Part shown: positions 437-26,034 of the stretch, piece after piece | Layout: each line of letters begins with the position of its first letter | Position numbering within the stretch: position 1 is the stretch's first letter | NCBI GenBank assembly: GCA_003550305.1 | Contig: QKYT01000499.1 | Coordinates: 3,315 to 37,504 of the forward strand | Origin: Glomus cerebriforme | Taxonomy: Eukaryota; Glomeromycota; Glomeromycetes; Glomerales; Glomeraceae | Length of the DNA: 34,190 nt | Direction: 5' to 3' | Translations under genes and position numbers: made by a program | Notes under the pieces: model-generated | Told to the model about the DNA's origin: nothing | The model's input: only the letters and a program-made list of their open reading frames with translations | Databases searched by the model: none

Positions 437-2560
437 TCATAGAGGAAAATGCCTTTCCAAAGAATATATTAACTGCGAAATTCCAATGCTTTGGGAGTAT
501 AATAAAAACCATATACCTATTAATTGCATTGTGTAAAATTTAAGTTTTTTAGCTGTTTCAAGAGATGCGTCAAGATATTGTTGTAATGTGCCTTGAAGCA
601 TTTCACCACCTTCCAGCAACGTCTTCTCGGTATCTCCCAGTGTGTGAGGACGATCCTGCTCAATTGGTCCGCCAGATACCTCGATTGTTGCAAACTCTCT
701 ATGATTCTTCTTGACAATAGCCAATGCGTCCACTTTGTAAGTCGTAGTTTTCTTGTCTGGATCTTCAACAAATTGCAATGCCTTTGTCATCATCATATGT
801 TTCTCCACCCTAGACAAATTCGAAAATAAATAAATATAACGAGAAAAATTCCTGTCTATATGAAGACGAGACATACCAGTTAAACGTTACCATATCAAAT
901 ACATATTCAATATACTTGAATGGAAGAGAAACCTGTTCTAGTAGAAATTTTCTTTCGGATGCATGCCTTTCAATCGTGTGATTTTTTGAACGGCGAATCA
1001 TAGTATGACTTTGGACGGTTACATCGCGTTAGTATTTTCATTTTCAAACGCATTAATAACAGTTATTATATACTTGCAAGTCGATTAATGTGCTCCGAAA
1101 GACAATACGCAAGCCATCTTCATAATCATTAGCATCTTTTAATAGCACATTCACCTTTTCATCAAACTCGTCTACAGTACTCTACAAAAATTATCAGGCT
1201 ATCAGCTTAAATTCGTAACTTCAAAGTATAATTGGCATTACAATACTCACAACGTAACCATGTAACTACTGATTCCGGCAAGCTGACTAGCTTGATTTGG
1301 TCGCGCGAATGGCGCATTATTTCCTCGACAATCCCTTCATGTTGAACTTCAAGATTGGATACAAGCGATTTCAAACCTGGTATTATTGTTGGCGCAAGAC
1401 TGCAACCAAAGAGAAAAGCAATTAATGATATTGCATAAGCTGACATGAACTACAGGGCGCATACTTTGCCATCGTCTTCTTTGTCAGGAGCGGTTTGTGC
1501 GGTGAGATTGCTAAGAATGAGACATGTGGGCCTTTCTTTCGTGGCGTTTGTGGCACATCGGATTCAGTCATCTTTCTCTTCAAGTCAATAGAATAGGTTC
1601 ACTCTTATGCTTATTTGAATTGATGACATCCTCTAGCCTATTCAAGGCACCACGATTTAACGTACTCGCATAATTTTGACTCTCCTGGGTTGCCTGTAGT
1701 AGTCCATGTAACTTATTTTGTAGTAAAATAATTTCGTATGTAAGCTCTATTAGATAAAATGACAATAATATTTCTCATGAGTACCTGAAGATCTGCTAAC
1801 TTCTTCTCTTTTAATTCGGCTTCAACAGATGTCCAAATTTTGTCTAAGGCTCCTCCTTTTCGACATCCTCGCTATGTAATTGTTAGTTTAAAGTTAATCG
1901 TAGGTTATTACAAATAATAAAGTGTTACAACTAGCCACGACGATCGTCACTCATCGGATCATAAACGGGGCATCAAGCAGAATTCCCGCGTAGTCGCAGT
2001 TGATAGTACAATTAAAGTACCCAATTAAAGTACCCTTATTGCTAAAAGCTAGCCGTCCACGACGATCGTCACTCATCGGATCATAAACGGGACATCAAGC
2101 AGAATTCCCGCGTAGTCGTAGAGATCCAAACCAACTAAACCGTTGATATGGCCACGGCCTAAGAGAACTTCTATCCAGTTGCAACATCACATTTGCACAA
2201 GGAAAAACTACACTTACCTTAGCTGTTTCTTGAAGTTTTAATGCCTTTCTTATCGTATCAACATTAGATGACGTGTTCACAATACTTCGCAAACTCTTGT
2301 TGAGTTTGTCTGCAGCCCTCTTGTACTCGAGTTTTTCCGGTCTATCTTTGTTTTTTTCTATGAAAAAAACGATGGAACTCGACGATATCCCACTCAATAG
2401 GATTCTTCAAATCGAAGTATGATTGCTTGTCGGTCATTTCCTGCAGGTCATGCAAAATAAGGTGAATAACGTAATCTCTGGCGTCCTATACGCAAATAGT
2501 TACCTGAGTTCTTGTGACGATAAAAGGGTTGTTTTCGTTGTCTTCCACTGGTCCTTGCAT
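437..2560 (-). CDS. Lineage-expanded fungal hypothetical protein, 8 exons, frame disturbed by small indels
   Basis: I do not recognise a named function. Splice-consistent exons (5' to 3' on minus) are 2560-2504, 2440-2218, 1871-1785, 1744-1465, 1399-1251, 1171-1074, 1008-877 and 809-437. Donors are GTAACT, GTAAGT, GTACTC, GTATGC, GTGAGT, GTATAT and GTATGT; acceptors include TGCAG, CATAG, TTGCAG and CTAG. Start ATG at 2560 gives MQGPVEDNENNPFIVTRTQ. Exon 2 is helical and charged. The last exon holds K-V-D-A-L-A-I-V followed by a short E-V-S-G-G-P segment. From memory this layout recurs in many Mucoromycota and Glomeromycotina hypothetical proteins, and a D...E-x-S pattern could suggest a PD-(D/E)XK-like fold (inference only). 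Phases join except for apparent 1-nt shifts near 2363 (T7 run), 1594 and 982. It is therefore either a recent pseudogene or affected by assembly indels. The 3' end after residue segment MQLIG is uncertain. Confidence 0.55.
1935..1996. repeat. 62-bp direct repeat, copy 1 (intronic)
   Basis: This copy is identical to 2057-2118 except for one base (G at 1970 versus A at 2092). The offset is exactly 122 nt. It contains the 10-bp palindrome GACGATCGTC. Its GC content is well above the surroundings. It lies inside intron 2 of the 437-2560 gene. Confidence 0.9.
2057..2118. repeat. 62-bp direct repeat, copy 2 (intronic)
   Basis: This is the second copy of the 1935-1996 unit, with a single mismatch. 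Between the copies sits a short tandem pair of AATTAAAGTACCC. The duplication enlarges an intron that is otherwise longer than its neighbours (about 350 nt). Confidence 0.9.
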
Positions 2561-2739
2561 TTAAAATGAGTATTCGAAATAAAATTAAAGCTGTTTTATG
2601 CGAAAGGATCTGAAAGTGAGTACAAACAAAACGCGTTTTCAAAATGTACCTTTCTGGAGATGATCGACAAAATGATCTTCATACGCACGTGGCGCAGTTA
2701 ACTAACTGTGGCGCAGAAATATTTTGCAAAAAAAAATAT

Positions 2740-3050
2740 TTCCTCAATATATAAAGCTTTTAAAAAAATATGCAATATGTGTATTTTTGCCCGCTCTGCA
2801 AGTTTACTTAGAGTAGCAAAGGTGATTTTAAAGGTCGTTTTTGACTTATTTCAATAAACCACTTTTTTTCATTAAAATTAATCTAACCAATTTTGGAAAT
2901 AATTGGCAAAGAAGGATTTTTTTATTTTTTTATAAAAAAAGTCAAAAACGACTTTTAAACCTCCCTTCCGGCCTTTAAGTAAACTTGCAGAGTGACTAAA
3001 AATACAATCATATTAAGAATTTTGAAAGTTTTTTTATTAAGTTATAAACT
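2740..3050. mobile_element. Foldback / MITE-like element
   Basis: An imperfect inverted repeat has arms of roughly 65-70 nt at about 2780-2848 and 2941-3010. The best inner blocks are CTCTGCAAGTTTACTTA facing TAAGTAAACTTGCAGAG, and GTCGTTTTTGACTT facing AAGTCAAAAACGAC. The centre (2849-2940) is AT-rich without an ORF. Weaker symmetry extends outward toward 2745 and 3045. This is the structure expected of a non-autonomous DNA transposon. Family and target-site duplication were not determined. Confidence 0.6.
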
Positions 3051-3654
3051 TATTTTTTATATCATTTGAACACCACTAACTAAGCATACATTTCAGACGT
3101 GCTTTTCATACATATAGTCACAAATTAAAGGTATTTGATCTTAGTAGACCAGAGGATGATTTTCTAACAATTCAGCTAAGGTTTAATTACCATTAAATCT
3201 GCAAAAGGTGATAGAAGTAAGGCAAAAGCGCAATGCAAAAAAGTACCCAAGCTAATAAGTAAAATCTAATTTCATAGATGCCAGCTTTTTTTTTACCTCA
3301 TATACCAGCATCTTCAGATTTTTAACTTCACATCATAATTTTTTATTTGCATTAATCCTCTCTCTATATTCTTTTTTTATATCTCACATAAATTTTTCAA
3401 AGGTTCTTTTATTATAATCAAACAGGTGCTGGGATAACACTTTAAGTTCATTCATAACCTAGCAATTATTTTCATTTTTATGATCACAAGTGATATTATC
3501 AGTTTGGAACCCATTATTTGTAATATATATAGCCAGTAATGCTAGAAATACATTACATTCTGGCCAGCTTTGAGAACGTAATATTTTTTCCTGAGTCATA
3601 GTTTTGTATTTTCAATTTAGTAAGTTTAAATATATACCCCAAATAGGATTCAAT

Positions 3655-3840
3655 TCATTCAGATTTCTTAGAAATAAATTCTAATGGGACAGGATCTTTA
3701 GAATGGTGCAAGAGTTCTTGGCAAGTTCTCTTGACAAGACTTTTGGATAATCTATCAATAATATGTTTATAGTCAGAATAGAATATTTTATTAAGTATAA
3801 TTTTGCGCAAAAAAAATTTGTACGCAAGAAATTCACCCAT
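3655..3840 (-). pseudogene. Short ORF, probable gene-family fragment
   Basis: A 61-codon ORF starts with ATG at 3840 and ends KDPVPLEFISKKSE. Its codon use and amphipathic content look more protein-like than the surrounding AT-rich sequence. No start context, partner exon or recognised domain was found. It may be a fragment of the decayed minus-strand gene upstream (4080-6240) or of a separate copy. Confidence is low. Confidence 0.25.
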
Positions 3841-4079
3841 AGGTCATAGTATTAAAAGCTTTTATTTTATTAATAAATTTACAGTTAATGTCATGACACA
3901 TCTGGAGATCTGCTAACTCTGATCAGATCACATGCATGTGATAAATTGTCACACCGATCACTTCACCAAGAAAAAAAAATACTGTCTGATGTATACAAAA
4001 AATAGGATTATTTTACAATAAAGTAGTACTTTTTTATTTATAATATACAGTAAGAATAAATACATGACAAATATATAAA

Positions 4080-6240
4080 ATAAACTGGTTATTCTGGATT
4101 GGAAGAAACAGTTGAGCTTTTTTCCATATACTTGCATAATCTAGATACCTGAGTATGAAATATAAGGCTCATATTAACCACTAAAATATTCTATAATATA
4201 TGAATAAATTAGTTTTGAATAAAATTTTAAGTTGTATTCTCATTGTAACATACCCATAAAATTAATAAAGTTTCTATAAATTCTGTCACAACATTCTTTT
4301 CAACTTGTTGAATGGGTATTTTTGCCAATTTGAGATGATAATATTGGTGAATATTACCGAATCCCTAACAAGCATATTGAAATGTAATTTATATTCTATT
4401 TTTGTGTGAGACATTGTTAAGTGATAAAATGTATAATATGAAAAAGAAAACATACCAGCAACTTGAATTCCAATTATTCCAAACTTATCTTTGTCTGGAT
4501 AACATCCTTTGCAAGTTCAAAAAATTCTATCATTGACTTCTCTTCACAACTTAACGTTATTATTACTTTTTTTGTGCTTAATACAAACCAAGTGGAAACA
4601 TTTAGCATATATAAGCTCATAAATATATTTTCCATATTTTAATACAAACATTATATTTGGCCATTTTTTAGAATATCCTTCTTCTCTTTTGTCTGCACTG
4701 GCAATATTCTGTTTTTTTAAGCTAAATAAAAAAAAAAATAAAAATTAATGTCTTTTCGAATCCACATTAATATTTCTAAATGCAACTTATGTGCTAACAT
4801 ATAAAGACTTTCCAAAAGGAAGATTTTTTAACATGGTATGGATTATAGGTACTATACAATGATATTTGTAATATAAGTATCCTCATTTTGCAATTCTATG
4901 AATTTGGGTCCGAATGCTAAATTGTTTCATGTATCACTCAAAACATCAAGGATTTTTTTTATAATTTCTGCAAGAATTTCCTTCTCTTCTTTTCAGAATC
5001 TATTATGCTCTAATTTTTCTGGCAGGATCTCTATCTGATATTCATTATAATTTGACACAAATTCTCTGCATGTTTCTCAAATGATTATTGGTAAGAAAGA
5101 AGATATCATCTTATGAGCTAGTTCCTACCAAGTTTTTTAAATAATATTTTATTCTGGAATTCATAATTTTTTCGTTCAATTGTATATTGGAAACCTTCAG
5201 ATTTAATAAACTTTTTGAAACTGCTATTGTAAAAGCAATTTGAATATTAGGAGAGGATCTGCCTTCTTTTGATTCTTTTAACCAAATCTTTTTGATTATG
5301 CATGTCATATAAGTCTTTTTGGGTTCTAAGTGATCAAAAAGTGATCAAATTTTTTTAACAACATTTTTAGTACTAATTTTTAACGAAGTATTATTATTGA
5401 TTTTTTTATTATCTGCTGCATCCATTGGTTTGAATAATTTGTTATGACAATTTTTTATGGCTGTCCCATTCTTCCATTTGTTCACAGCTGCAAGTAGTGC
5501 ATTCATTTTTATAGGTGAAAGTTGCTGCTCTTTGAATACAGAAAATACTGCATTTCTGATTTTAGTTGCTAATATTCCTCTATTACTTCTAATTTGTTTT
5601 AGAATCTAACAGAAAATAATAAATAACTATTGGTTAAAAAAAGAATAAATAATGTAAAACTTCTAATTCAACTAAAACTTATGTTTCCATAAAAATATTT
5701 CTCATATGTTATATTTCATAATTTTGATGTAAAATCACTAATATAATTTTTGTATTTTTTGAACAAATATTCTTCCATTTCTTCACGAAATTCTTTTTGA
5801 GTTGGATAAATTAATTTTTTTAATAAAATTTTGGCCACTTTTTTAACAANATTCTAATAAATAGATGTTAATACAATATATTAGTATTATTACTCTATAT
5901 TTATGATTAAATAAATAATAAATCTATTTGTTTATTACCTCAACAAATTGCTCGTTCACATGACTTTTAGATTTATTTTCTTCTAGTTTAGAAACTCTAA
6001 CACTTAAAGAGTTTTATAATGCTAGCAACCTATCAATTTTCTTTATTATTAATAAATTTTGTTGAATTATTTTGTTAAAAGAAAATGACACTATATTATA
6101 AAAAATAAATTTATAGTTAAATTAGGTTGCTTAATGTCAAAGATGAGAATTGAAATCATTAAATAAAAGTGTAAAATTACCTTCAGAGAATACATTCTTA
6201 GAAACTGTAGTTGACACTGCTGTTTCTTTCTTTTTTTTTT
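4080..6240 (-). pseudogene. Decayed copy of a lineage-expanded hypothetical protein family
   Basis: Read on the minus strand, broken coding blocks follow one another. A coiled-coil-like block (SLSVRVSKLEENKSK) lies near 5940-6020, ending in a GTAATAA-type donor. A block with YPTQKEFREEMEEYLFKKY lies near 5770-5830, a block around ATKIRNAVFSVFKEQQLSP near 5500-5600, and a 65-codon open stretch spans 5111-5308. A C-terminal block with KWPNIMFVLKYGKYIYEL and CYPDKDKFGIIGIQVAG lies near 4465-4680. A final block (IHQYYHLKLAKIP) lies near 4265-4370. By memory this is the order seen in a large Rhizophagus hypothetical family; its function is unknown. Frameshifts and stops are numerous. Two TGA codons (4544-4546 and 4517-4519) sit where the family appears to have tryptophan, in one frame 27 nt apart. 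An N lies at 5850. Exon limits are approximate. Confidence 0.5.
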
Positions 6241-6813: not shown

Positions 6814-7350
6814 TATAGAAGGTTTATAAAAGATTTTGCAAAAATAGTAAAATCTTTACATACATAATTTAACTAAAAAGGATACATAATTTGAATGGAA
6901 GAAAGAATAATAGAAAGCTTTTGATATATTAAGAACTAAGTTGACAAAGAAACTAATCTTAATATATTCAAATTTTGATAAAGAATTTATATTAATAACT
7001 GATAGATCTAAAATAGGAATAGGGGCAGTATTAGCTCAAATGAATGAAGATAATAAAGAAGTTGTAATAGCATATAAAGTAGAAGTACAGTTGAAGTAGA
7101 AAAGAATTATTCACCAATAGAATTGGAATGTTTAGCTGTGTTTTGGGCAATAAAATATTTTCAAAAATATTTAGTAAGAAGAAAATTTACTGTAATAACA
7201 GATCATGCAGCTTTAAAAGGATTAACAGATGAAAAAAAACAGACAGGAAAAAGAGCATAATGGATAATGTAATTACAGCAGTTTGATTTCAAAATAGTTT
7301 ATAGAAGTAAAAAGAAAATAAAGAATGCAGACGCATTGTCAAGATTATAA
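6814..7350 (+). pseudogene. gypsy pol: RT connection and RNase H segment
   Basis: The YRRFIKDFAKI block is the usual end of the gypsy RT/connection region, followed by FEWKKE and AFDILRTKLTKKLILIYSNF. RNase H starts with ILITDRSKIGIGAVLAQMNE (first catalytic Asp) and continues through YSPIELECLAVFWAIKYF (Glu) and ITDHAALKGL (Asp). It ends at NADALSRL, the typical boundary. One frame slip lies near 6887 and another near 7087. Stops occur at 6865 (TAA), 6874 (TAA), 6908 (TAA), 6911 (TAG), 7258 (TAA) and 7270 (TAA). The pair at 6908/6911 falls on the expected Gln-Gln of an E-Q-Q-K-A-F-type motif. Confidence 0.8.
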
Positions 7351-8224
7351 TTTGAAGAAAAAGTTATAAAAGGAAGCCTTGAAGACTTAGATTAGGAAAT
7401 AAACAAAATGGATTGTAATAAAGAAAAGAGATTAAAATATGTTAAATCAGGAAATAAATGGTTTAATGCTAAGAAATTTAAAGAAAAATAGGATGATGTG
7501 AAGTATTTTAATAATAAGAAAGCAATATTGTTAAATTTAGAAAATAAAATAGAGAAAGAATTATTACAGAAGTTAGGAAGAGAAAATAAACTGCAAGTTA
7601 TTATTATCGATGAAGTAGATGGTATAGGAAAATCTACTGTAGTGAAAAATATAATTAAATGATTAAAAGAGAAAGACAAGTTATAAGTAGTATTTAATAG
7701 GTTTAAAAGAAGAAGAAATGATGATGAAAGATTTAGAGAACTATCAAAAAAGTATGAATGGTTATTCAAGAAACAAATTGTAAAAGAAATTAATAGAAGA
7801 ATGGTAGAATTTACAGATAAAAATGTAATAATATTAGATAAATCACCATATTGTGAATATTTTTATCAGACTAAAAGTTTTAATAGAGGATATATTAGTC
7901 CATATGAAAATCATAAGATGAAAAAAGAAATATTCAAATATAAAGATATTATAGATAATGCAATAGTAATTTTTTTAGAAAATAAAGAATGTTGGAATAA
8001 TTATATAGGAAAAAAAACTAAAAAAAGTAATGAAGGACATAAAGTATCTTATGAAACATTGAATAAAGAAAAATATAGGAATATGGTTGAAATATTTAAA
8101 AAGCATCAAAATGTTTATGAGAATGAAGAGAAATATAAATAAGTAAGGATTAAAAATGATAACAAAAGTTGGAAAAAGGTATATAAATAAGTTAAAAGAT
8201 TGTTAGAAGAACAAAATAACTACT
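7351..8224 (+). pseudogene. Thymidylate-kinase-like P-loop domain inside gypsy pol
   Basis: This block continues the RNase H reading frame without a shift. It opens with a lysine-rich linker, then a Walker A motif at 7609-7638 (D-E-V-D-G-I-G-K-S-T) preceded by a hydrophobic beta strand (VIII). A helix and KRRRNDDERF follow. Next comes VIILDKSPYCEYFYQ at about 7825-7869, which matches the D-R-[SY]-x-Y...YQ signature of thymidylate and deoxynucleoside kinases with Lys for Arg. Then come NAIVIFLENKECW (a strand like the VIYLD strand of these kinases) and a C-terminal helix ending near 8215. Length (about 210 residues from the P-loop) fits the family. Its predicted role, phosphorylating dTMP or a related nucleotide, is inference. 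In-frame stops occur at 7393, 7489, 7660, 7684, 8140 and 8188. The ATG at 7801 opens only a C-terminal piece and is not a true start. Confidence 0.65.
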
Positions 8225-8743
8225 GAAAATATTGGATTAGAAATATATATTTTTATTATACATGAAAATACAAATTATCATTGTGTATTATTTGAAGATA
8301 GAAAATTGAAGTTTATCTTACCTTTGAAGTAGAACTAGAAAATATATTAAGGAATGAAAGAAGATAAATATAATGAGATAGTTAAAAATATAGATAATAA
8401 ACAAAATTATAGAATTAAAGATGGTTTATTATATAGGATAAGAGATAATGAGAATTTAAGAATAATTAGAAAATAAGAATTTAAAGGTAACAAGAAGAAT
8501 AAGTTAAAGAAGAAATTTTAGACAGGTGACAAAGTATTATATTACGATATAGCAAAAGAAAAATAATGGACTGGAAAACTAGAAGAAAAATAAAAAGGAC
8601 CTTATTATATATATGAAATAATCTCTAAAGGTTCATATAAAATTAAAACTATAGAAAGGAAGATATTGAAAATGCCAGTAAATGGAGAATTATTAAAAGA
8701 ATATATGAATAGATTAAATTTTGAAGTGATAATTAGGATTTGA
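8225..8743 (+). pseudogene. gypsy pol: integrase N-terminal remnant joined to C-terminal segment
   Basis: A single frame (shifted by one from the kinase block) runs to the stop at 8741-8743. The stretch KYNEIVKNIDNKQNYRIKDG then LLYRI resembles the region just before the H2C2 zinc finger of gypsy integrases. About 15 codons later the sequence is already TGDKVLYYDIAKEK and KGPYYIYEIISKGSYKIKTI, the conserved segment after the catalytic core, ending PVNGELLKEYMNRLNF. The zinc finger and DDE core (about 250 residues) are therefore missing. Stops lie at 8330, 8336, 8348, 8474, 8519, 8564 and 8591, all TAA or TAG; several fall on Gln in remembered relatives (A-K-E-K-Q-W type). Confidence 0.7.
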
Positions 8744-8812
8744 GTGGACTCAAATTTTAAAGTGAAAGGAAAGCTGTAATTGAAGATATGGGGTAGATTA
8801 CATAAAGATTAC

Positions 8813-9373
8813 TGTTAAAGTATTTACAGTATGAGAATTAATATTATTACATTTTAGATAGTATTTTAGATAGTTTTATAGTTTAGTTTATTAACGTGTG
8901 ATTAGCATATGACTTAATACATGGATAAAATATTATAGAACATTGTAGGAATTATAAGAAATGGTAGAATAATTTATAATATCACAAATAGTTTAGTGAA
9001 ATATAATTTAATAAAACATTAAATTATATAAAAAGGCTGGGGTTTGACTTTAGTCAGATAGCCTTTGGAAGCTTTGGTATGTAGCTTTGGCTCAAAAAAA
9101 AAATAAAAAATATTAATTATTAAAAGTTATTTCAAATATGCTCATAGTTCACCTGAGAGTTAATTAATATGATAAGTCCAGAAGTGGAGTAAGGAAAATT
9201 ATCTCAATTTAATTCTTTAATGTAAAGTTATTTAACATAAGGGAAAACTATTGAAGTTTGAAAGTTAAAATTTAAGATATAAAAGAAATAAGGAGTTGTT
9301 AAAATCTAAACCAAATATATAAATAAACTAAGTGTTAATTTAGTCTGCTGATATGTAGCAGGTGTCGGTAACA
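8813..9373 (+). repeat. Candidate 3' LTR of the gypsy element
   Basis: The segment begins TGTTA (8813) and ends TAACA (9373), a 5-bp inverted TG...CA terminus. It follows a purine-rich tract (AAAGTGAAAGGAAAG, 8759-8773, and GAAGATATGGGG). A TATA-like ATTATATAAAAAGG near 9024-9037 precedes a GC-richer block (GGCTGGGGTTTGAC), consistent with an LTR promoter. No second LTR is present in the window, so the limits cannot be proved. An alternative start is the TGTAAT at 8775. Confidence 0.45.
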
Positions 9374-11147: not shown

Positions 11148-14100
11148 CTAACTTAGTTGTTGTCCACCTCCATTTCCATTATTATTATTACTATTACTAC
11201 TTTTACCACCATTTTCACTTTTATTACTTTCATTATATTCTATTATATTTCCTTCCTCATTATTATTGTTCAGATTAACATTACTTCTTTCTTCTCTGTT
11301 ATGATTTTTTTCTTTCAAATTATCATCAAAAAAATTTTTACCATTTAAATTTAATAATAAAGTTCTTAAGAATGCTTGCTCGTATTTTGTATTTTCAAAT
11401 ATTAAAGCTAAATTATCCGAAGGACATCTTAAAAAATTAGGTGCAAATACCATGGCTAAATTATGAATGTTCATTTTTGTTAATTTAGATACTTGGGGAT
11501 CTGCAAATTTCTGTTAAAATAAAAATTATGGCTTAGTATGTTTTAAATTTATCTCCGTAGAAGAAACTACGTTCTTAAAAAATTTATTTACTTACTTGTA
11601 AGAAATCAATAGTATAAACAACTACTCTTTGATTAATTAAAGGTAATTCTTTAATAATATCAATAGCAACTTTATTATCTTCAGAAAATCTAACACACTT
11701 ATCATAAAATTTATTAGGAATAAGTGGATCCGATAATTCTCTCAACCAAAGTTTTAGTAATGATGATGGTACATTTGGATCCGTTATGCCACTCATATCA
11801 TATCTATTCTTTTCTAACCTCAATTTCTAATTTAAAAAAAAGTTTAATTTAGGAAAAAAAAATTTTTTCTTTTAAAAAAAACTTCTCCCTTTCTCTACGT
11901 TTACTTACCAATTCGGTTACGTAATCGGCGTCACCTGGTACACGAAATATTCCTTCGCTAGATTGTCCATTTAATTCTAAAATAGCATTTGCGAGGAATG
12001 GTAATATTCTAGGTACTTTAAGTTGTGGGAAAGATTTTTCTTGTAATTTCATTATAAATTCCAAAGTTTCTCCAAACACTGAAGGATTAAATGGTGCTTC
12101 CTATATTAAAATATAATATAAATAATATATACACATTAAATACAAAATTTTAATAACGTAATGATATCATTAAATTATAATATTTACTTTAGCTCTTTCA
12201 ATTTCAGCTAATGTCAACACCTTGCCACGTGGACCCCGTTTACATATTTTCAGTAGACGATTATGTACATGTTTACTCAATATATCAATTTGATTTTCGG
12301 CATGTGAAAAATGATCCACAGTGAATTGCATTAAATAAGCTTCAAAATTTTTTGATGGGGGAAATGTAACTGTTATCACGCTTAACAATTCCCATCCTTT
12401 CCTTATACTATCTCTATTAAAATAAAATTATTTAATTAATCTTTTTCCCATTTTTCTCTTTAAGTTTAATAGTAATGATACCTTACCCATTTGGATTTTC
12501 ATTTAGTTGTTTACAAATTTGTACATAAATTTCATCTCTTAATTCTCCATGTAGTATTCCACGATCTAATAACCATTGTGTATCTTCTAATACATTTGTA
12601 GGACCATACCTTCCTTTAGATCGATCTCCCATTATACGTTGAACAACCTTAAAGCACCTTATTGCATCTTTTTGTATATTAGTATTTAGTACCATCAAAG
12701 GTTGATTAATCGAATCCTACATGAAAAATATAACAAATTAGTTTATAAATATTCCTTCCCTTCTTTAGTTCACACACTTTTTTGACATTACCTTTTGAAA
12801 TAATAACATTTTTTCTAGGGGAACTTTTCTTCGGAATATTCCTCTTTTATGAGTAGTAAAATATTTTCTAGCAAATCCGTCAATTCTAAATTTGTTTATT
12901 TCTTGTTGTAGTTCAGGTGGTAAAGTTAAAACTTCACTATTATTAAAACAAGAAAAAAACGGTATTAATATATTTGAAGTCATTTGGTCTTTATTGATCT
13001 TTTTAAGTGATTCAATTCTTCTCCACAAAAAAAAAAAAAAAAAAAGGAGAAAAAAATATATGGAGAAAGAAAGATTCTAAAATTTACATACCCGGTACTT
13101 AATTTCCTTGTATGTATTTGATAAGCTGGCTTTTTCCGTTGTAAATCTTGATATAAAATTCCAGTGGGTTTCATTGCAGTTGCAGCATCTGAAACAAGTT
13201 CATAATTTTAAAAATAAATTCGATTGTATAATAATTATACATATATAGTATGGGACATTATTTAAAATATGTAATGTGTGGATTGTTTCGCAGGTATGAC
13301 ATGTAATGCAATGCACGATTATAAAAGTTATGTTATACAACCTCAAAGTTTATATCCTAAAATATATAATTATTATAAATAACACAAATAAAAGTTAAAA
13401 CTTACCGAAATTTACTACAGGTTCACTTATACCAGATTTACGTGCTTTATCGGCTATAATTGAAGATTTATTTGGAGAAACAATTTTGAAAGATTGTTGT
13501 TGTATATTTACATATGGTTCTGATCCATTATTGTTTGCATTCAAACTAGATGGAGTTATTGGACGAGAAGTTGGAGTAGATGCAATAGATGTTGATGATG
13601 ATGTTTGCGATTGCGTAAATTTGTTTTGAAGTGAATTGTTCCTTTTCAATTGTCCCTACAAGACAAAAGACAAAGAAAAAAAAATCAGGGTTTTATTTTG
13701 TATAAAATTTAATAGATCTTGTCATAAATTAACACCAATACCATACAAAAAATACATAAAAATCATGTATGTATATATATATGTACTGTATATATAATAC
13801 ATATATAATACATGCAATTCACTTTCTTACCTGTGTTGATAAATCATTACTATCAATTGAAGCATTTGAAGATTTTTGAGATAAATTTCCAGAGAAATCT
13901 GATCCATTGAGAGTATCCTTACTTTGATTTATTGATTTAGAATTTTTCGATTTATGAGTTTCCTCGCTAAAAGAATCAACATCACGTGACGATGAATTTG
14001 TTGGAGAAGCGGGAGTAGTGACAATTGCAGCGTCAAATCCATCAATATCTTTTACATGATTATGATGAGATTTTAAAGGAGGAACCACAGATAATTGTTG

Positions 14101-14610
14101 TTGATAATAATAATTATTATTAGGAGTTAATAACATTCCTGATGTTCTAATTTGTTTTGAATCATTTCCAGCAGTGACAGCAGCCATATTAGTAATATCA
14201 ATATCATCTTGAGTGAACACAACAGATAATCTCTTTCCGATTGAAGAATTTTGGATCTTTTTTAAGGGAATAATTGTTCCAGACGAAGGTACATTCCAAT
14301 CAGTTTGACCTGTCTCCGTATTATAATAATAAGGTAATTTATGATTATCATCCCATAATTCCCACCATTCTTCGCCCAATACTGGATGTAAGGACACATT
14401 TCTTGGTTTTTCCACTAAACATTCCCCTGTTGCCTATAAAATATGGATGAATGCAAGGGTTACAAAAAATCCTTGCATCATTCCAATAATGGGGGTTTTT
14501 TTTCTTACAATTTACGAAATGAGAGAAAAACTTACCGGGTTAGCATAAAACACCGTATCCAATTGAGGATCCCTTATTTTAACCCAAGAATTAGTAATAA
14601 TTGTAGCCAT
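11148..14610 (-). CDS. WW-MyTH4-RhoGAP protein (ARHGAP39/Vilse-like Rho GTPase-activating protein)
   Basis: Ten exons join in phase to 831 residues: 14610-14536, 14433-13831, 13655-13406, 13188-13092, 13020-12792, 12716-12487, 12413-12188, 12100-11909, 11826-11596 and 11510-11148. Donors are GTAAG, GTATGT or GTAAT/GTAAA types; acceptors are AG. An N-terminal WW-like repeat (residues 8-34, WVKIRDPQ...FYANP) spans the first splice. A clear WW domain (46-76) has Trp48, the YYYN core and W71-N-V-P74. A Ser/Thr/Asn-rich linker runs to about 310. A MyTH4 domain (about 330-565) contains GRYGPTNVLEDTQWLLDRGI and LRDEIYVQICKQLNENP. RhoGAP (about 575-755) has the arginine finger in GIFRVPG (Arg623), LWLRELSDPLIP and NLAMVFAPNFLR. 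The Asn-rich tail is disordered. It should switch off Rho-family GTPases in polarity or cytoskeleton control; the WW-MyTH4-RhoGAP order is that of Vilse/ARHGAP39. No myosin motor is present. Confidence 0.92.
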
Positions 14611-17299: not shown

Positions 17300-20200
17300 A
17301 TGGATGAAACATTTGAAAGGATTCGAGGACAAATTAATTCCAAACTTGATAATCAAAAACAGATATCAATAACATTATTTGCGATAGAAGAAACGATAAA
17401 AGAACAAGATAGTACGTTGAATGCGACATCATATTTCGCCGCATTACTTACAACTTTAGACCAACAACTTGTTAAAAAACAACAACAATCATTATCATCT
17501 TCTGAAGAAAAGAATAATATAATAGGATCAATATTATATTTATTAAATATTGTATTAAAAGAATTATCAATCAAAATTTTAAAAAATAATTATTCTACAA
17601 TATTAACAATATTAATTACTTCATTAGAAGATATAACAATTAATAATAATGATTCTGCTATATTAAGAAGTATCGTAGGATGTTTAGAAACAATATTAAG
17701 TATCCAACAAGATATTAATATTTGGAAACAATTTCAAACTAAAAAAATTTTTCAAAATTTATTATTATTATCTATTGATAGTAGACCTAAACCAAGAAAA
17801 AGGGTTCATGATGCTATAAAAAAAATTTTATGTTCAATTTCTTCTGATCAAATTGAAGTTGTAGGATTAGGTGGTGATGGTAATAATAATAATGTCATCG
17901 TAACAGGAAGTAATATGGTTGGAAAATCCATAATCAAACATCCTGCTATTAATATGACAACAGAATTTTGTATGAAAATACTTAAAGAATGTATTAAAAC
18001 TGATCAAACATCAGTTTTACATATTTTGAGTTTATTAAAAGGGATTATTGTTGTATGGCCAACAGAAAATCTATATTCATTATGTGAAATATTAATTAAT
18101 ATACCAAAATATAATCAAAAATATTTAACTATATCATCATTTCAATTATTTGAAATATTATTTCAAAATAATTCAAAAGGTTTTATTCTTGTTGAAGAAG
18201 GAAGAGAAAAACAATATCATCAACAACAGCAACAACAGCAACAACAACAACAACAACAACATCGATTTAAAGAATTATTAATTTCTTTAATGGATTTAAT
18301 ACCAAATATAAAAGATATTCAACTTTTACCACAATGGTTAATGATTATAGCAAGAGGATTTCCTATTTATGTAGAATGTAATAAAAATGAGAGTGAGAAA
18401 ATGTTACAAGAATTTTTTATTAAAATTTTTGGAATTTTAGAAAGTGATAATTCTGATATTATCGTAGCTGCTACTGTATGTCTTTGTGAACTTATATCTT
18501 CAGGAATTACTGATGATATGATTCAACAATCATTAAATGATATTAAATTAAATCAAGATCAAGGCGGTCGAAAACAACGACAAGGATGTTTAAATATTAT
18601 AATTTCAACGATAGAAAATAGTTTCACTTTTAAATATCAAAATGCTTGGCCAGGAATTTTGGAAATCATTAAAGAATTATTTCAAAGACTTCATAAATCT
18701 TCACAACCATTACTCATTAATTTATTAAAAATTGTATCAGATATTAGAATGGATAAATCTTTTGAATTGAAAGAAGAAGCGGATTCAACTATAGGAATCG
18801 CTATAGAAAATATGGGACCAAAATATCTTTTACAAATTCTTCCATTAAATTTAGAATCACCAGGAAATAATAATGGTAGAGCTTGGTTATTACCTCTACT
18901 TAAAGATCATATTATAAATTCAGAATTAGGATATTTCTTAAAAGAATTCGTACCTTTAAGTCAAAGGTTACAACAGAAATCTTTAGAATGTCAACAACAA
19001 AATCGTTTAATTGAATCAAAAATTTATGATACTTTAATACAACAAATTTGGTCTTTATTACCAGGATTTTGTAATTTACCTATAGATTTACAAAATTCTT
19101 TTAATAAATCTACTGGTGAATTATTAAGTAATATTATGTATCAACAACCTGATTTACGTCCTATTATATCATTATCATTACAAAAATTGGTAGAAAAGAA
19201 TAAGGAATTATTAAATTTTGAAAAAGATGATCAAGAATTAAAAAAATTATATGGTATTGATAAGAATGATGCGAAAAAAAATTTAGAATTATTATCAAAA
19301 CATTCCAATAATTATTTGGCAGTCTTCTTTAATGTACTCTCTCAAACTTTACCTTCTTATAGAGGTTATCTTTTAGAAGTGATAAAAGTTTATTTAACTA
19401 TCACTCCATCAAAAGATGTTAATACTGCTTTCGTTAAAGTTATGAATATTCTTAAACAATCTTTATCAAATCCAATTCCTACTTCACAACAAGGTGTTGA
19501 AACTCCTCTTCCAATGTCTCATACGATGTTAGATCTATCAATTGTGATGACTCCTTATCTTAGTATAGCATCAATTAATCAATTATATGAAATTATAACT
19601 AAATTAATTTCTCAAGATGATTCAATATTACAAAAGAAATCTTATAAAATATTGAATTCATTGGCAGAAACTGAAAATGGTAAAAAAGTGATATTAAATA
19701 ATCTTGAAGATTTACAAATTAAATTAAGAGATTCTACCATGATTACAACTTCTTCTTCAAAAAAGAATAGATTATTAACATTAAGTAATATAATAAAATT
19801 ATTACCAGAATCGGATCTTCATATGATACCTGATATATTATCTGAAGTTATATTAAGTACGAAAGAAGTTAATGAAAAGGCTAGAATAGCAGCTTATGAA
19901 TTATTAATAGTAATGGGTAATAAAATGAAACAAGGTGGAATTATTATTATGAGTAAAGTATTAGAATCTGATCCTTCATCATCAAATATAAATGCAACAA
20001 TTGATGAATTCGTATTTAATATGGTAATAGCAGGATTAGCAGCTACTACTCCTCATATGATAAGTGCTACTATAACTTCTTTATCAAGATTATTATTTGA
20101 ATTTAAAAATGATCTTAAAAGAGAGTTTATACATAAATTACTTGATACCATGAATAATTTTGTTAATTGTACTAATAGAGAAATAGTTAAATCAGCTTTA

Positions 20201-21388
20201 GGTTTCGTTAAAGTGACAACAATTTCTTTAGATTTAGATATTCTTAGTCCACATTTATCTCAAATCATTATTGGAATATTATCTTGGTCAAATGAACATA
20301 AAAGTCATTTTAAAGTTAAAGTTAGACATATTTTTGAAAGATTAATTAGAAGATTTGATTATGATACTATTGAAAAATATGTACCTGAAAGTGATAAAAA
20401 ATTATTGGTTAATATTAAGAAGAGAAAAGAACGTGCAAAGAGGAAAAAGATTGCAAATGAATCAAATGTAAATGCGAATGATAATTTTGATGATAATAAA
20501 AAGAAAGATGAAAATGATGATGGTGATGATGGTGATGATGACGATCGTATTGGAAAGCATAAAGGAAAAAGATCAATGTTTAATAGTGCTTATGAAGATG
20601 CATTATACGGTAGTGAAAGTGATTTAGAAGATACTGATGATGATAAGGATGATGATGACAATATGAGAGGTACTGATAAAAACGGTAAAAATGGTAAAAA
20701 TGGAGGAATATCAAAGAAAAATAAAGAAACTTCCAAGAAAGGGAAAAAGAAGGATGGTAATAGTACCTGGATCAAAGAAGGTGATGATGATGATGATTAT
20801 GCACCTGTTGATTTCTTGGATAAAGGAATAATATCAAAAGTGATCGGAGTAAATCCTTCAAATACTCGAAAACAAAGAAAAGATTTTTCAAAAGCATTTA
20901 AAGAAACTCGAGATGGTAAAATGGTTATAAATGAATCTGACGATTCTGATAATTCCGAGAATGAAAGAACGAATTCTTCTGATGTTGTGATGCAAGAAGC
21001 TGATGATTTTTATAATGAATCACAACAATCAAATGATGGATTCATTCGTGGTCAAGGAAACAAAATTAAATTTAAGAAAGGAAATAAGAAAAATAATGAT
21101 GATATGGATATAGATGATATTGAACCTATTGATGCTATCGCTTCAAGAAATCAAAAGAAACATAAAAACAATAAAGGGAATAATAATAATAATAAAGTTA
21201 TTTCCATCGGTAAAGAATACAAAGCTAAAAATGCTGGCGGGGATATTAAAAAGAAAGGTAAACCTGATCCTTTCGCTTACGTACCTTTATCATCTATGTA
21301 TAAAAAGCATAATCAACAAAAGGGTCCAAAAATTTCTATCACTTCAAAAAGTAAAATACAAAAACGTCAAGGTATGAGGAGGAAATAA
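17300..21388 (+). CDS. RRP12: RRP12-like ribosome biogenesis protein (NUC173/HEAT-repeat)
   Basis: A single 1,362-residue exon starts at ATG 17300, right after a T8A9 tract, and ends at TAA 21386-21388. The N-terminus (IRGQINSKLDNQKQ, EETIKEQ, ATSYFAALL) is typical of Rrp12. Alpha-helical HEAT-like repeats fill most of the protein. The NUC173 region lies about residues 440-640 (FKYQNAWPGILEII, LPLNLESPG, GRAWLLPLLKDHI). A glutamine tract of CAA/CAG codons lies near residues 304-320. The C-terminal third turns into alternating Asp-rich and Lys/Arg-rich low complexity with nuclear-localisation-like clusters (about 1030-1362). Yeast Rrp12 is needed for rRNA processing and nuclear export of both ribosomal subunits; length and order match the family. 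The absence of introns contrasts with the neighbours. The gene converges on the carrier gene, with 217 nt between stops. A T11A12 tract follows the stop. Confidence 0.93.
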   Translation: MDETFERIRGQINSKLDNQKQISITLFAIEETIKEQDSTLNATSYFAALLTTLDQQLVKKQQQSLSSSEEKNNIIGSILYLLNIVLKELSIKILKNNYSTILTILITSLEDITINNNDSAILRSIVGCLETILSIQQDINIWKQFQTKKIFQNLLLLSIDSRPKPRKRVHDAIKKILCSISSDQIEVVGLGGDGNNNNVIVTGSNMVGKSIIKHPAINMTTEFCMKILKECIKTDQTSVLHILSLLKGIIVVWPTENLYSLCEILINIPKYNQKYLTISSFQLFEILFQNNSKGFILVEEGREKQYHQQQQQQQQQQQQQHRFKELLISLMDLIPNIKDIQLLPQWLMIIARGFPIYVECNKNESEKMLQEFFIKIFGILESDNSDIIVAATVCLCELISSGITDDMIQQSLNDIKLNQDQGGRKQRQGCLNIIISTIENSFTFKYQNAWPGILEIIKELFQRLHKSSQPLLINLLKIVSDIRMDKSFELKEEADSTIGIAIENMGPKYLLQILPLNLESPGNNNGRAWLLPLLKDHIINSELGYFLKEFVPLSQRLQQKSLECQQQNRLIESKIYDTLIQQIWSLLPGFCNLPIDLQNSFNKSTGELLSNIMYQQPDLRPIISLSLQKLVEKNKELLNFEKDDQELKKLYGIDKNDAKKNLELLSKHSNNYLAVFFNVLSQTLPSYRGYLLEVIKVYLTITPSKDVNTAFVKVMNILKQSLSNPIPTSQQGVETPLPMSHTMLDLSIVMTPYLSIASINQLYEIITKLISQDDSILQKKSYKILNSLAETENGKKVILNNLEDLQIKLRDSTMITTSSSKKNRLLTLSNIIKLLPESDLHMIPDILSEVILSTKEVNEKARIAAYELLIVMGNKMKQGGIIIMSKVLESDPSSSNINATIDEFVFNMVIAGLAATTPHMISATITSLSRLLFEFKNDLKREFIHKLLDTMNNFVNCTNREIVKSALGFVKVTTISLDLDILSPHLSQIIIGILSWSNEHKSHFKVKVRHIFERLIRRFDYDTIEKYVPESDKKLLVNIKKRKERAKRKKIANESNVNANDNFDDNKKKDENDDGDDGDDDDRIGKHKGKRSMFNSAYEDALYGSESDLEDTDDDKDDDDNMRGTDKNGKNGKNGGISKKNKETSKKGKKKDGNSTWIKEGDDDDDYAPVDFLDKGIISKVIGVNPSNTRKQRKDFSKAFKETRDGKMVINESDDSDNSENERTNSSDVVMQEADDFYNESQQSNDGFIRGQGNKIKFKKGNKKNNDDMDIDDIEPIDAIASRNQKKHKNNKGNNNNNKVISIGKEYKAKNAGGDIKKKGKPDPFAYVPLSSMYKKHNQQKGPKISITSKSKIQKRQGMRRK
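18211..18260 (+). repeat. CAA/CAG microsatellite encoding polyglutamine
   Basis: In-frame mixed CAA/CAG triplets give about 14 consecutive glutamines in the RRP12-like protein, between a charged helix and KELLISLMDLIP. It is a likely length-variable site. Confidence 0.85.
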
Positions 21389-21605: not shown

Positions 21606-22835
21606 TTATTTTGTAAGTACTTTTTTTCTATTGGTTAGTAATTTTCCAAAGAAAATAAAAAGTAATATGGTATATTTAGTAGTATATTCTTTAACATATA
21701 ATAATAAAGCTTGAGATAGTACAGCTTTTGTAATTTGTGCTTGCATACCCTAAATAATTTTTTATAGAAAATATATTATATATATATAAATAACGATTTA
21801 ACAAATAATAATAATACAAAGATATATAATATTTGACTTTAAAAAATTCTTGTTTACCTTATACCATCCAGGAATACCATCAGATTCTAAAACTTTTCGT
21901 AAAACATCAATAGCTCCAGAATATTTTTGATGTTTCCTAATATTATCATCCACATCATCTATAAATTCATCATCATCTTTTGGTGGTTTCCATTGTAATC
22001 TAACTTTAGCCATAATATAAGGATAAGTAATAATAGTAGCAAGAGTTTTACTTAAAGCTCCCAACCAAAAAATTATACCAGGACTAAGTTGTCCTCCATT
22101 AGCTGATAATCTTTTTGAGATTAAATCCTTAAATCTTTCAAAAGCTCCATAAGTAATAGCAGGATTAATACATAATATTAAACTTGGTTTTAATCCTTTC
22201 CATAAACCTGTAATACCATCATCCGAAATAATTTCTTTTGATGTATTAATTAAATTTTTTCTATATTTACGACTTGTTGTTTGTTGTCTCGTTGTTACTA
22301 CTGATACAGGAATTGTAAATATTTGTGCTAATGCTCCTGCTGAAGCACCTAATAATAATTCAGATATTGTTGACATTGTTTGTTGTTTATTAATACTTTG
22401 ATACCTTGTACGCAAAAATGAATACCAATAAAAATACGCAAAATTTGTTGATGCTACTCCAATTAATCCAGCTGGTAATCCTGCATATAATCCTGATATT
22501 CCTTCTGTTTTAATAATTTTAATAATTGCATCTGTCGTTGATTCATAATATTCATCTACTTTTAAATTCTTTGATGAACTTTTTGATTGTACTTGAAGTC
22601 GAGTTTTTATACTTGGAGAAAAAAAAAAAATAAATAAAAATAAATTAATATCATAGTAGATTAAAAAATCAATATATTTATTAAAAAATATTATATATAA
22701 TCAGTATTTTGATATTTACATATCCAAAGGATAAACAATCATCAAAGCGAAAAGTGCTCCCAAAGAACCTGCTACCGCATTTCCAAAAGGTGAAAGTGGT
22801 GGTAATGTTGTTATTTCTTTTGAAGCTGCTACCAT
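21606..22835 (-). CDS. ANT1: Peroxisomal adenine-nucleotide carrier-like mitochondrial carrier family protein
   Basis: Three exons (22835-22720, 22611-21858, 21749-21606) join in phase to 337 residues. Donors are GTAAAT and GTAAAC; acceptors CCAAG and TTTAG. The three SLC25 repeats carry signature motifs: PLDIIKTRLQ (36-45, split by intron 1), IPVSVVTTRQQT in the second, and YPYIMAKVRLQW in the third. Six transmembrane helices are expected. The start LSPFGNAVAGSLGALFALMI, the Asp-rich loop after the third motif (KPPKDDDEFIDDVDDN) and the ending GWYKGMQAQITKAVLSQALL resemble the peroxisomal ATP/AMP (ANT1, PMP34, PNC) group, which imports ATP for fatty-acid activation. Substrate is inferred from these resemblances; another SLC25 carrier remains possible. 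A T8A8 tract sits 38-53 nt upstream of the ATG. Confidence 0.85.
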
Positions 22836-24292: not shown

Positions 24293-26034
24293 TCATGGAC
24301 CCAATACTAAAAGAGGTTTTTTCTTTCCATCAAGATTATAATCTTGAACAAAATAATCGTTCAAATATTCACTACCTCCAAAAAAGAATTCTTGTAATTG
24401 AGAACAACCACAACAAATAATCGCTACATCATCCTGTGTTAAATTAGGACAAACACGAATTCGTAATTTTTCTAAATATCTAAGTCGTGTTAATGTTGGT
24501 GCAATAATCTAATTATAAAAAAAAAAAAAAAAAAATTACAAAGATGTCATTAAAGAAAATATAACATATATACATATATATATATAATTAAAATTACCGT
24601 ATTCGGAATATCTTCGGTACTGGCCAAATAAAATTCTTTTAATTGTGTACATATTGAAACGATCGCGTCTAAATCACGAATTGTAAAATCCGTGGAAGGA
24701 AACAAACTTAATTTTCTTAAATTCCTACAATATCTACCTATACCAGAAATTACTACTTCTTCTGTAATTCGATCACAATTTGATATTTGTAAAGAAGTAA
24801 GAGTACCAGAAATACTTTTAAGTAAAGAAATTATAGGTTCATCAGTGACATAAGGTATAGCAAATAAACAAAGATCACTAATAGGAGGACGACTCTTTTC
24901 AAGTACCCAAAAAGATGAATCAGTAAAATTACAATTATAAAGATGAAGATAAGTTAAATTTTTAGAATTTCTAATACCCAACATGCTTAAAGTAACATCA
25001 GTAACAAGTGGAGTTGAATACTGAAAAGTCACTTTATTAAGCATTTTCAAACGTTCTGCTATCATCAAGAATCCATCATTTGAAAAATTTTCCGCTTTAT
25101 GTAAAGTAAATTGAATAGATTCTATATTTAAACAATAATTAGCTATATCAAATAAAGTTTCATTTGTTACCCCTTCATATGGTTCTAAACTTAAATTATG
25201 AAGATTAGGACATCTAATTGCTACTTGTTTCATTGATAAATCAGTTATATTTCTTAAATTTTGAAGTATTAAAGATTCTAAATTTTTATTTATATTAATA
25301 GCCATTGTAATAATAGAATTATCATAAAGAGTACTACAATCCCAAATATGTATATTCTTCAATCTTGAACAATGTTGTGTTATAAGCATAAAAGTATCAT
25401 TTTGAATTATATTTCCAATATAAATTTCAAGAGTTACAAGATGTTCAGCAGAGATTGCAAGTTGTAAAAATGAATTATTTTTAATGTTCACACAATCACC
25501 AATAGAAAGATGTTCTAATCGATTACATCTTTTAATTACTTGAATTAAAGATTGATCAGTAATATTTGGTAAATTTAATAATTTGAGAGATTTCAAATCT
25601 GAACATTGTCCTGATATTCTACTAAGTATATCATCTTTAAGTTCTTGAACGTAAGAAAAATCAAGATGTTTTAATACTCCACAAGATTCAGATATTAAAC
25701 CCAATTCAGCTGAAGGACAAGAAAGTCTTGATAAATCAAGACTTTGAATAAAACAACCATAAGCATATAAAGTAGCATGTTGTCTCGTTCTAATTAAAGT
25801 TCTAATAAATTTATTAAAAGTTGAAGCGCGTTTCATAAGTGGTTTTTTCCATAATATAGGGGTTGCACAAGTATTCCATAAACGAGATACTAAACAACAA
25901 GTAGCTAAGTCGGTTTGTCTTTCTAAATGTTTTATTATTTCGCATATAATATAAGCTTGGTTTGATAAAGGTGTTTCATAAGTTATTTCGTAGTATTCGG
26001 TCGTTCGCATAACATGATATTGTGATATTGCCAT
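24293..26034 (-). CDS. F-box and leucine-rich-repeat protein
   Basis: Exon 1 is 26034-24598 and exon 2 is 24508-24293, joined in phase (GTAATT donor, ATTAG acceptor) to 550 residues. The F-box lies about residues 25-66: IICEIIKHLERQTDLATCCL then VSRLWNTCATPILW, the usual Skp1-binding pattern. From about 95 onward there are about 15 cysteine-containing LRRs (AMN1/Grr1 type), for example LKSLKLLNLPNITDQSLIQV and LEHLSIGDCVNIKN. Such proteins are substrate receptors of SCF ubiquitin ligases, the LRR arc binding the target. This type is hugely expanded in Rhizophagus-like fungi, so no one-to-one orthologue is claimed. The single intron splits the last LRRs; reading through it gives a truncated product ending in an AT-repeat-encoded tail. 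Confidence 0.9.

Follow-up and report, generated by a model that had tools for sequence, protein, structure and literature searches.

A nucleotide-kinase-fold domain is supported by our analysis as a recurrent, selectively constrained part of one Ty3/gypsy lineage in the genome of Glomus cerebriforme. Computation establishes where the module lies, that it recurs, which fold is predicted for it, that its residues are conserved and that it is under selective constraint; we hold it somewhat probable that this is a gypsy lineage of Rhizophagus-type fungi whose deoxynucleotide-kinase module, in the order RNase H-kinase-integrase, feeds the DNA synthesis of the reverse transcriptase (RT). Such a family points to the ability of a retrotransposon to carry machinery of its own for supplying DNA building blocks: retroelement-borne dUTPases are known, and a kinase would be a second, independent route by which an element manages its own nucleotide pool, here in the AT-rich genome of an obligate plant symbiont.

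A truncated remnant in the window

The window (the whole 34,190-nucleotide stretch that was analysed; C632:3315-37504, in a searched genome of 112.5 Mb and 1117 contigs) contains the following features, of which the last four are host genes:

6814..6901, + strand: C-terminal end of RT, split into two pieces that differ in frame (tblastn of P0001 RT residues 303-330)
6917..7347, + strand: RNase H in two frames, with NADALSRL at its end (7324-7347) (Pfam RT_RNaseH 73 bits; tblastn 81-82% to P0001)
7348..7584, + strand: linker, here with a stop at its beginning (tblastn 74% to P0001, match 7345-7584; model m5bd117a4bf2b)
7585..8223, + strand: kinase domain with a predicted TMPK/dNK (thymidylate/deoxynucleoside kinase) fold (tblastn 71% to P0001; structure model and comparisons)
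8216..8226, + strand: kinase stop (TGA 8224-8226) and integrase-frame start, overlapping (pattern search of copies)
8216..8520, + strand: integrase N-terminal piece, in the +1 frame relative to the kinase, containing stops (sequence)
8523..8740, + strand: integrase C-terminal piece with what we take to be the GPYxI motif (tblastn 52% to P0025 over 8528-8740)
8759..8774, + strand: purine-rich stretch ahead of the LTR, a putative polypurine tract (sequence)
8775..9373, + strand: 3' LTR, TG...CA, 599 bases, its limits placed where similarity among copies ends
13822..14415, - strand: WW domain
17300..21388, + strand: RRP12-like
21801..22415, - strand: mitochondrial carrier
24553..26034, - strand: F-box with LRR

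The window also holds two 65-base direct repeats (1935-2121), 97% identical and with 122 bases between them.

The window copy is dead. The element's remaining 5' side, upstream of the RT C-terminal end, is missing; the integrase core is deleted, with the N- and C-terminal pieces left; and the 3' LTR alone is seen (an LTR query of the genome gave at least 61 match rows, with 40 of 99 candidates scored). In addition to the stop at 7348-7350, six lie inside the block (at 7393, 7489, 7660, 7684, 8140 and 8188), four of them in the kinase domain. GC content is 25% in the window and 21% in the kinase block. The structure model predicts that the linker is ordered from about residue 27 onwards, as a small subdomain at the N-terminal side of the kinase.

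A first-pass annotation of this DNA had described an RNase H frame that runs without a shift into a kinase-like block and then on into integrase. RNase H and the block do share one frame across an unshifted junction, although a stop stands at 7348-7350 and the RNase H itself changes frame near 7075-7078. The onward continuation did not hold: the frame is closed by TGA 8224-8226, and the N-terminal stretch of integrase is read in the +1 frame. The kinase-like motifs are present as described, within 291 codons at 7351-8223: VDGIGKST (7615-7638), FKRRR (7702-7716), LDKSPYCEYFYQ (7834-7869) and IVIFLE (7963-7980).

Recurrence at a conserved junction

A protein search of the genome returned 26 rows on 16 contigs. 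The kinase body occurs on 13 of these (C436, C17, C632, which contains the window, C82, C1013, C896, C263, C658, C130, C169, C475, C324 and C612), and every one of the 20 rows obtained with the divergent query P0055 falls on the same 13; on C666, C458 and C336, the first 30-55 residues alone match. RNase H lies upstream of the kinase at 11 of the 13 loci (the exceptions are C324 and C612), and the domain is found repeatedly at the junction at which the first-pass annotation had suggested looking for it. With the block behind RNase H at these loci and in pol proteins predicted from other records, the observation exceeds what chance would give. Integrase sequence lies downstream, also at 11 of 13 (none was found at C263, and C658 ends with the contig). 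L021, L022 and L023 (on C458, C666 and C336) have RT-RNase H and a short linker near an integrase end, with kinase and integrase core absent; from their sequences, they may be a deletion-derivative subfamily that arose by internal deletion.

An RNase H search gave at least 85 rows, of which 16 have at least 72% identity and lie on 13 contigs, namely 10 that bear the kinase and those of the three candidate deletion derivatives; the other 69 all have 59% identity or less, and one of them (C475) is on a kinase-hit contig. From this distribution, in which the counts are lower bounds, the kinase is characteristic of a single gypsy lineage, with C475 in addition; the majority of gypsy elements here are without it. 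The order GAG-PR-RT-RH-linker-kinase-INT is found in L011, L012, L014 and L015, and in part in the other copies; with integrase after RNase H, this is the order of Ty3/gypsy elements (Metaviridae). The C436 copy is identified as an LTR retrotransposon by its flanking LTRs (258481-258960 and 266044-266559, the LTR part of the latter from about 266065; 93% identical), which delimit an element of ~8.1 kb that encloses the kinase at 263828-264709. The family thus comprises a Ty3/gypsy element with an extra domain, at a conserved junction and under purifying selection (see below). Elsewhere, on the reverse strand of L020 (about 790-4209), a long Sel1-repeat-like frame (1140 aa, by eye) lies beside a decayed kinase-integrase fragment.

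A pattern search found the kinase-integrase junction in 7 of 10 copies: the integrase frame opens 8 bases before the kinase TGA, with the sequence ATGACTACTGA (ATG) in five copies and ATA in two (the window and L013). This arrangement could allow integrase to be expressed via termination-reinitiation or frameshift. Integrase placement differs by lineage, with an overlapping frame here and kinase-integrase proteins elsewhere: P0146 (R. irregularis) is a single protein with Thymidylate_kin, Integrase_H2C2 and rve, each above cut-off, and kinase and integrase are joined likewise in P0147, P0148 and P0151. An in-frame fusion, as originally proposed, is therefore seen for RT-RNase H-kinase in the predicted proteins of relatives, but integrase in the window lineage is a separate, overlapping frame.

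Relatives and possible module exchange

A search with candidates of 605-1925 aa yielded 25 proteins, those with species names being from R. irregularis or R. clarus; P0001-P0025 are gene predictions, known as proteins alone, in which introns may have been assumed. P0001 to P0005 (745-770 aa, R. irregularis) have the layout RT-RNase H-linker-kinase (P0002 without part of RNase H), P0006 and P0014 are from metagenomes, and the RVT_1 and RT_RNaseH profiles are present in P0001, P0006, P0009 and P0014. Two overlapping searches with kinase alignments gave at least 117 proteins (the 7997 candidates with the most words in common were scored) and 100, and each species name listed in either is that of a Rhizophagus species or Glomus cerebriforme. 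The kinase stands beside RNase H in records of R. irregularis and R. clarus and in metagenome contigs. P0008, P0010 to P0017 and P0023 have no linker between the two, and several metagenome proteins of 251-267 aa have a Met before the linker and the kinase at their end; the kinase may be an ORF of its own in some lineages.

P0007 and P0009 combine an RT-RNase H of the P0001 type with a kinase of the no-linker type. In AU tests of 13 proteins, with groups defined after inspection of the identity table and with draft-genome gene models that can be chimeric, placement of their RT-RNase H with the no-linker set was rejected (p 3e-7), as was that of their kinase with the P0001 set (p 7e-9). P0024, a more broken model on another contig, has the same mix by eye. 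We offer, as a possibility about which we are doubtful, that the kinase would be packaged within Pol and make deoxynucleotides for reverse transcription inside the particle, with the module swapped as a unit between gypsy lineages, at the RT-RNase H end or the integrase start.

Profiles, motifs and predicted fold

The proposed profile check named neither kinase family for the decayed window copy: Thymidylate_kin and dNK were unlisted by Pfam at E up to 1, and weak general P-loop families alone were returned (best E 0.0054, below cut-off). Among 38 kinase members, Thymidylate_kin matches 33 and dNK 7 at E up to 0.01 (best dNK E 3e-4), and the Thymidylate_kin match covers nearly the whole profile in P0052 and P0055. 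Most members score under the curated TMPK cut-offs: for PF02223 (27 bits), P0052 (32.5) and P0146 (30.2) are above, and P0055 (26.4), P0064 (26.2), P0144 (25.5), the P0001 kinase part (24.3), whole P0001 (20.0) and P0014 (18.6) below. The dNK cut-off (PF01712, 27 bits) was missed by the P0001 kinase part (17.0) and P0064 (16.1). Automatic database names label some relatives 'thymidylate kinase' or 'Thymidylate kinase-like domain'.

A sequence search of the PDB gave mainly P-loop matches to FtsY, and NCBIfam listed FtsY for 32 of 38 members and dTMP kinase models for 31 and 29; in the one member displayed, every score was well under its cut-off. FtsY was not adopted as a family call. We also rejected phrog_761 as proof of a TMPK, since L056, a dNK-type ORF, matched it too. 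L056 (G000:C358, 1030-2115) is a single-copy, apparently intronless frame of 361 aa, in which an extension of ~130 residues precedes a C-terminal dNK (Pfam 105 bits); the alignment of its profile with the retroelement kinase is weak.

Structure prediction, the other check proposed, gave the kinase family of the translated block a TMPK/dNK fold, and the predicted structure qualifies as a TMPK fold. The structural matches listed are TMPK, dNK and similar kinases, at 7-18% identity to thymidylate kinases; in these model-based comparisons, dNK structures tie with TMPK within the tool's tie, and Foldseek ranks a deoxyadenosine kinase first. That a family is missing from these structural lists does not count against it. 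The P-loop, GVDGxGK, is presumably of TMPK type. Thymidylate kinases have a DR motif after the third strand, in place of which DK is found in all 69 sequences having that column. The dNK glutamate-tryptophan motif (HETVDEW in L056) has no counterpart in the retroelement kinase by eye. Of the TMPK/dNK identity first suggested, the predicted nucleotide-kinase fold thus stands, but not the DR motif, and the two families match equally in structure.

Constraint and residue conservation

Median dN/dS (NG86, pairs with at least 60 comparable codons; subject to post-insertion decay, non-independent pairs and, in every domain, a bias of tblastn pieces to alike stretches) was 0.27 for the kinase (77 pairs), 0.27 for RT (36), 0.33 for RNase H (55), 0.30 for the linker (55) and 0.32 for integrase (43), in agreement with the purifying selection that had been anticipated. 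Shifted-frame controls, which often fall below 1, probably from composition, gave 0.63 and 1.09 for the kinase, 0.73 and 0.68 for RT, 0.46 and 0.67 for RNase H, 0.46 and 0.50 for the linker and 0.65 and 0.64 for integrase; RNase H and linker show the least contrast with the true frame. When copies are compared with the divergent L018, constraint is strongest in the kinase (0.14-0.22 in 10 pairs; RT 0.26-0.35 in 8 pairs), and the L018-L020 kinase pair has 0.44. At the protein level, conservation of the kinase is about equal to that of RT (P0001 and P0006 are 72% identical in kinase, 67% in RT, 53% in RNase H and 39% in linker).

Residues were counted in 70 near-full-length kinases out of 159 proteins. 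The expectation of intact motifs was borne out for the P-loop lysine (69/70) and not for DR, the pair being D643 and K644 in 69/69 (P0001 numbering). N596, K599, R602, F619, R620, V624, N628, R630, R660 and R702 are present in 70/70. Walker A is altered in several decayed copies of the window genome.

A proposed role and its alternatives

A supply of dNTPs can limit reverse transcription, as is established for retroviruses in non-dividing cells. We hypothesize that the kinase forms the C-terminal end of a Pol protein with the layout RT-RNase H-kinase, with integrase supplied from the overlapping frame by reinitiation or frameshift; joined to Pol, the kinase could be packaged together with RT, near which it would phosphorylate dTMP, or deoxynucleotides more broadly, and its products would feed RT's DNA synthesis when host pools are low. 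Against this reading stand the structural tie with dNK, the deoxyadenosine kinase at the head of the Foldseek ranking, the DK pair, the sub-threshold TMPK scores of most members, the window copy's escape from the Pfam kinase profiles, the phrog_761 match of a dNK-type ORF and the lack of a kinase in most gypsy elements of this genome. An alternative is a deoxynucleoside or broad dNMP kinase, still supplying dNTPs via salvage of other nucleosides or nucleotides; we regard this as rather unlikely, given the preponderance of Thymidylate_kin over dNK matches, the TMPK-type P-loop and the missing HETVDEW counterpart. Undecayed relatives exist as predicted proteins, and so function is directly testable.

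Other roles seem less probable still. A catalytically dead domain, retained as a structural spacer in Pol, would accommodate the DK pair, the altered Walker A of decayed copies and the absence of linker or kinase from some elements, but the near-invariant P-loop lysine, the many invariant charged residues and the strong constraint against L018 make it improbable. Slightly less probable again is action on RNA/DNA ends or a tRNA primer, aiding priming rather than nucleotide supply. KTI12 and PSTK are P-loop proteins that bind tRNA; the KTI12 profile matches 28 of 38 members (above cut-off in P0064), and one member matches L-seryl-tRNA(Sec) kinase. The KTI12 matches inspected, however, span the P-loop half alone (profile 3-82 of 271), whereas the TMPK profile is covered almost fully in P0052 and P0055 and the structures listed are kinases of the TMPK, dNK and similar kinds. 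The chance that a host gene was inserted once, at the window locus alone, as the broken and truncated window copy might have suggested, is negligible: this is refuted by the recurrent RNase H-kinase junction (11 loci here, R. irregularis and R. clarus records and metagenome contigs). The predicted-fold comparison places the block among P-loop kinases, and neither of the two outcomes named by the first-pass annotation as refuting was seen.

Comparison with known systems

The available text of one study describes several captures of dUTPase by fungal gypsy elements, at several Pol positions (PMC2864245). PosPlaTy3 of Postia placenta (earlier Phanerochaete, Tuber) likewise joins a deoxynucleotide-metabolism enzyme to a fungal gypsy Pol (PMC2864245), but that enzyme, dUTPase, has a different fold and is a hydrolase; the enzyme seen here in Rhizophagus-type fungi is a P-loop kinase, placed after RNase H and before integrase. 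From the portions available, LTR retrotransposons with an added enzyme also include orchid Ty3/gypsy elements with an AlkB RNA demethylase ORF, active in vitro (PMC9289625), and bdelloid rotifer elements that carry dUTPase together with additional ORF3 enzymes (PMC5408684); the enzymes are different ones, and they sit in a further ORF or elsewhere in Pol. Thymidylate kinases (PF02223; S. aureus TMPK 4hld) differ from the retroelement kinase by DR for DK and by the latter's joining to Pol. Deoxynucleoside kinases (PF01712; human dCK, Giardia deoxyadenosine kinase) are alike in predicted fold, with a common S after the D-K/R pair and then a Y-rich motif, but differ in their weak profile matches and in the TMPK-type P-loop of the retroelement kinase.

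In the open-licence PMC literature, outside which most subscription journals lie, we found, among the matches listed, no TMPK-type kinase in a retroelement, consistent with the first-pass annotation's doubt that such a lineage had been described. In the accessible text of two R. irregularis transposon papers, kinases figure solely as host gene families that have expanded (PMC11075540, PMC8647823), and by term search 'kinase' is absent from the main text of a fungal LTR element survey (PMC3248453).

Source of the module

A comparison of motifs, as distinct from a tree, does not support an origin from the host TMPK, whose P-loop differs (FEGCDKAGKSTQ) and which carries DRYAYSG. A second Thymidylate_kin match in the genome (C931) lacks, by eye, a P-loop of the retroelement-kinase kind. 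The P0014 kinase found no match by tblastn among 50,697 phage records, A3, P0152 and P0158 as queries likewise yielded nothing, and a scan of prokaryote genomes for the kinase found none. IMG/VR gave six weak relatives, which align over part of the domain at 32-56% identity; among the three whose ORFs were inspected (L058, L062 and L063), L058 has a short TMPK-like ORF. The nearest relative without retroelement parts is P0152, a protein that joins NUDIX to kinase, is encoded on a 6198-base metagenome contig and is 43% identical to P0055; P0158 has, by eye, a stretch resembling P0152's NUDIX ahead of its kinase. These proteins are a possible clue to the source of the module.
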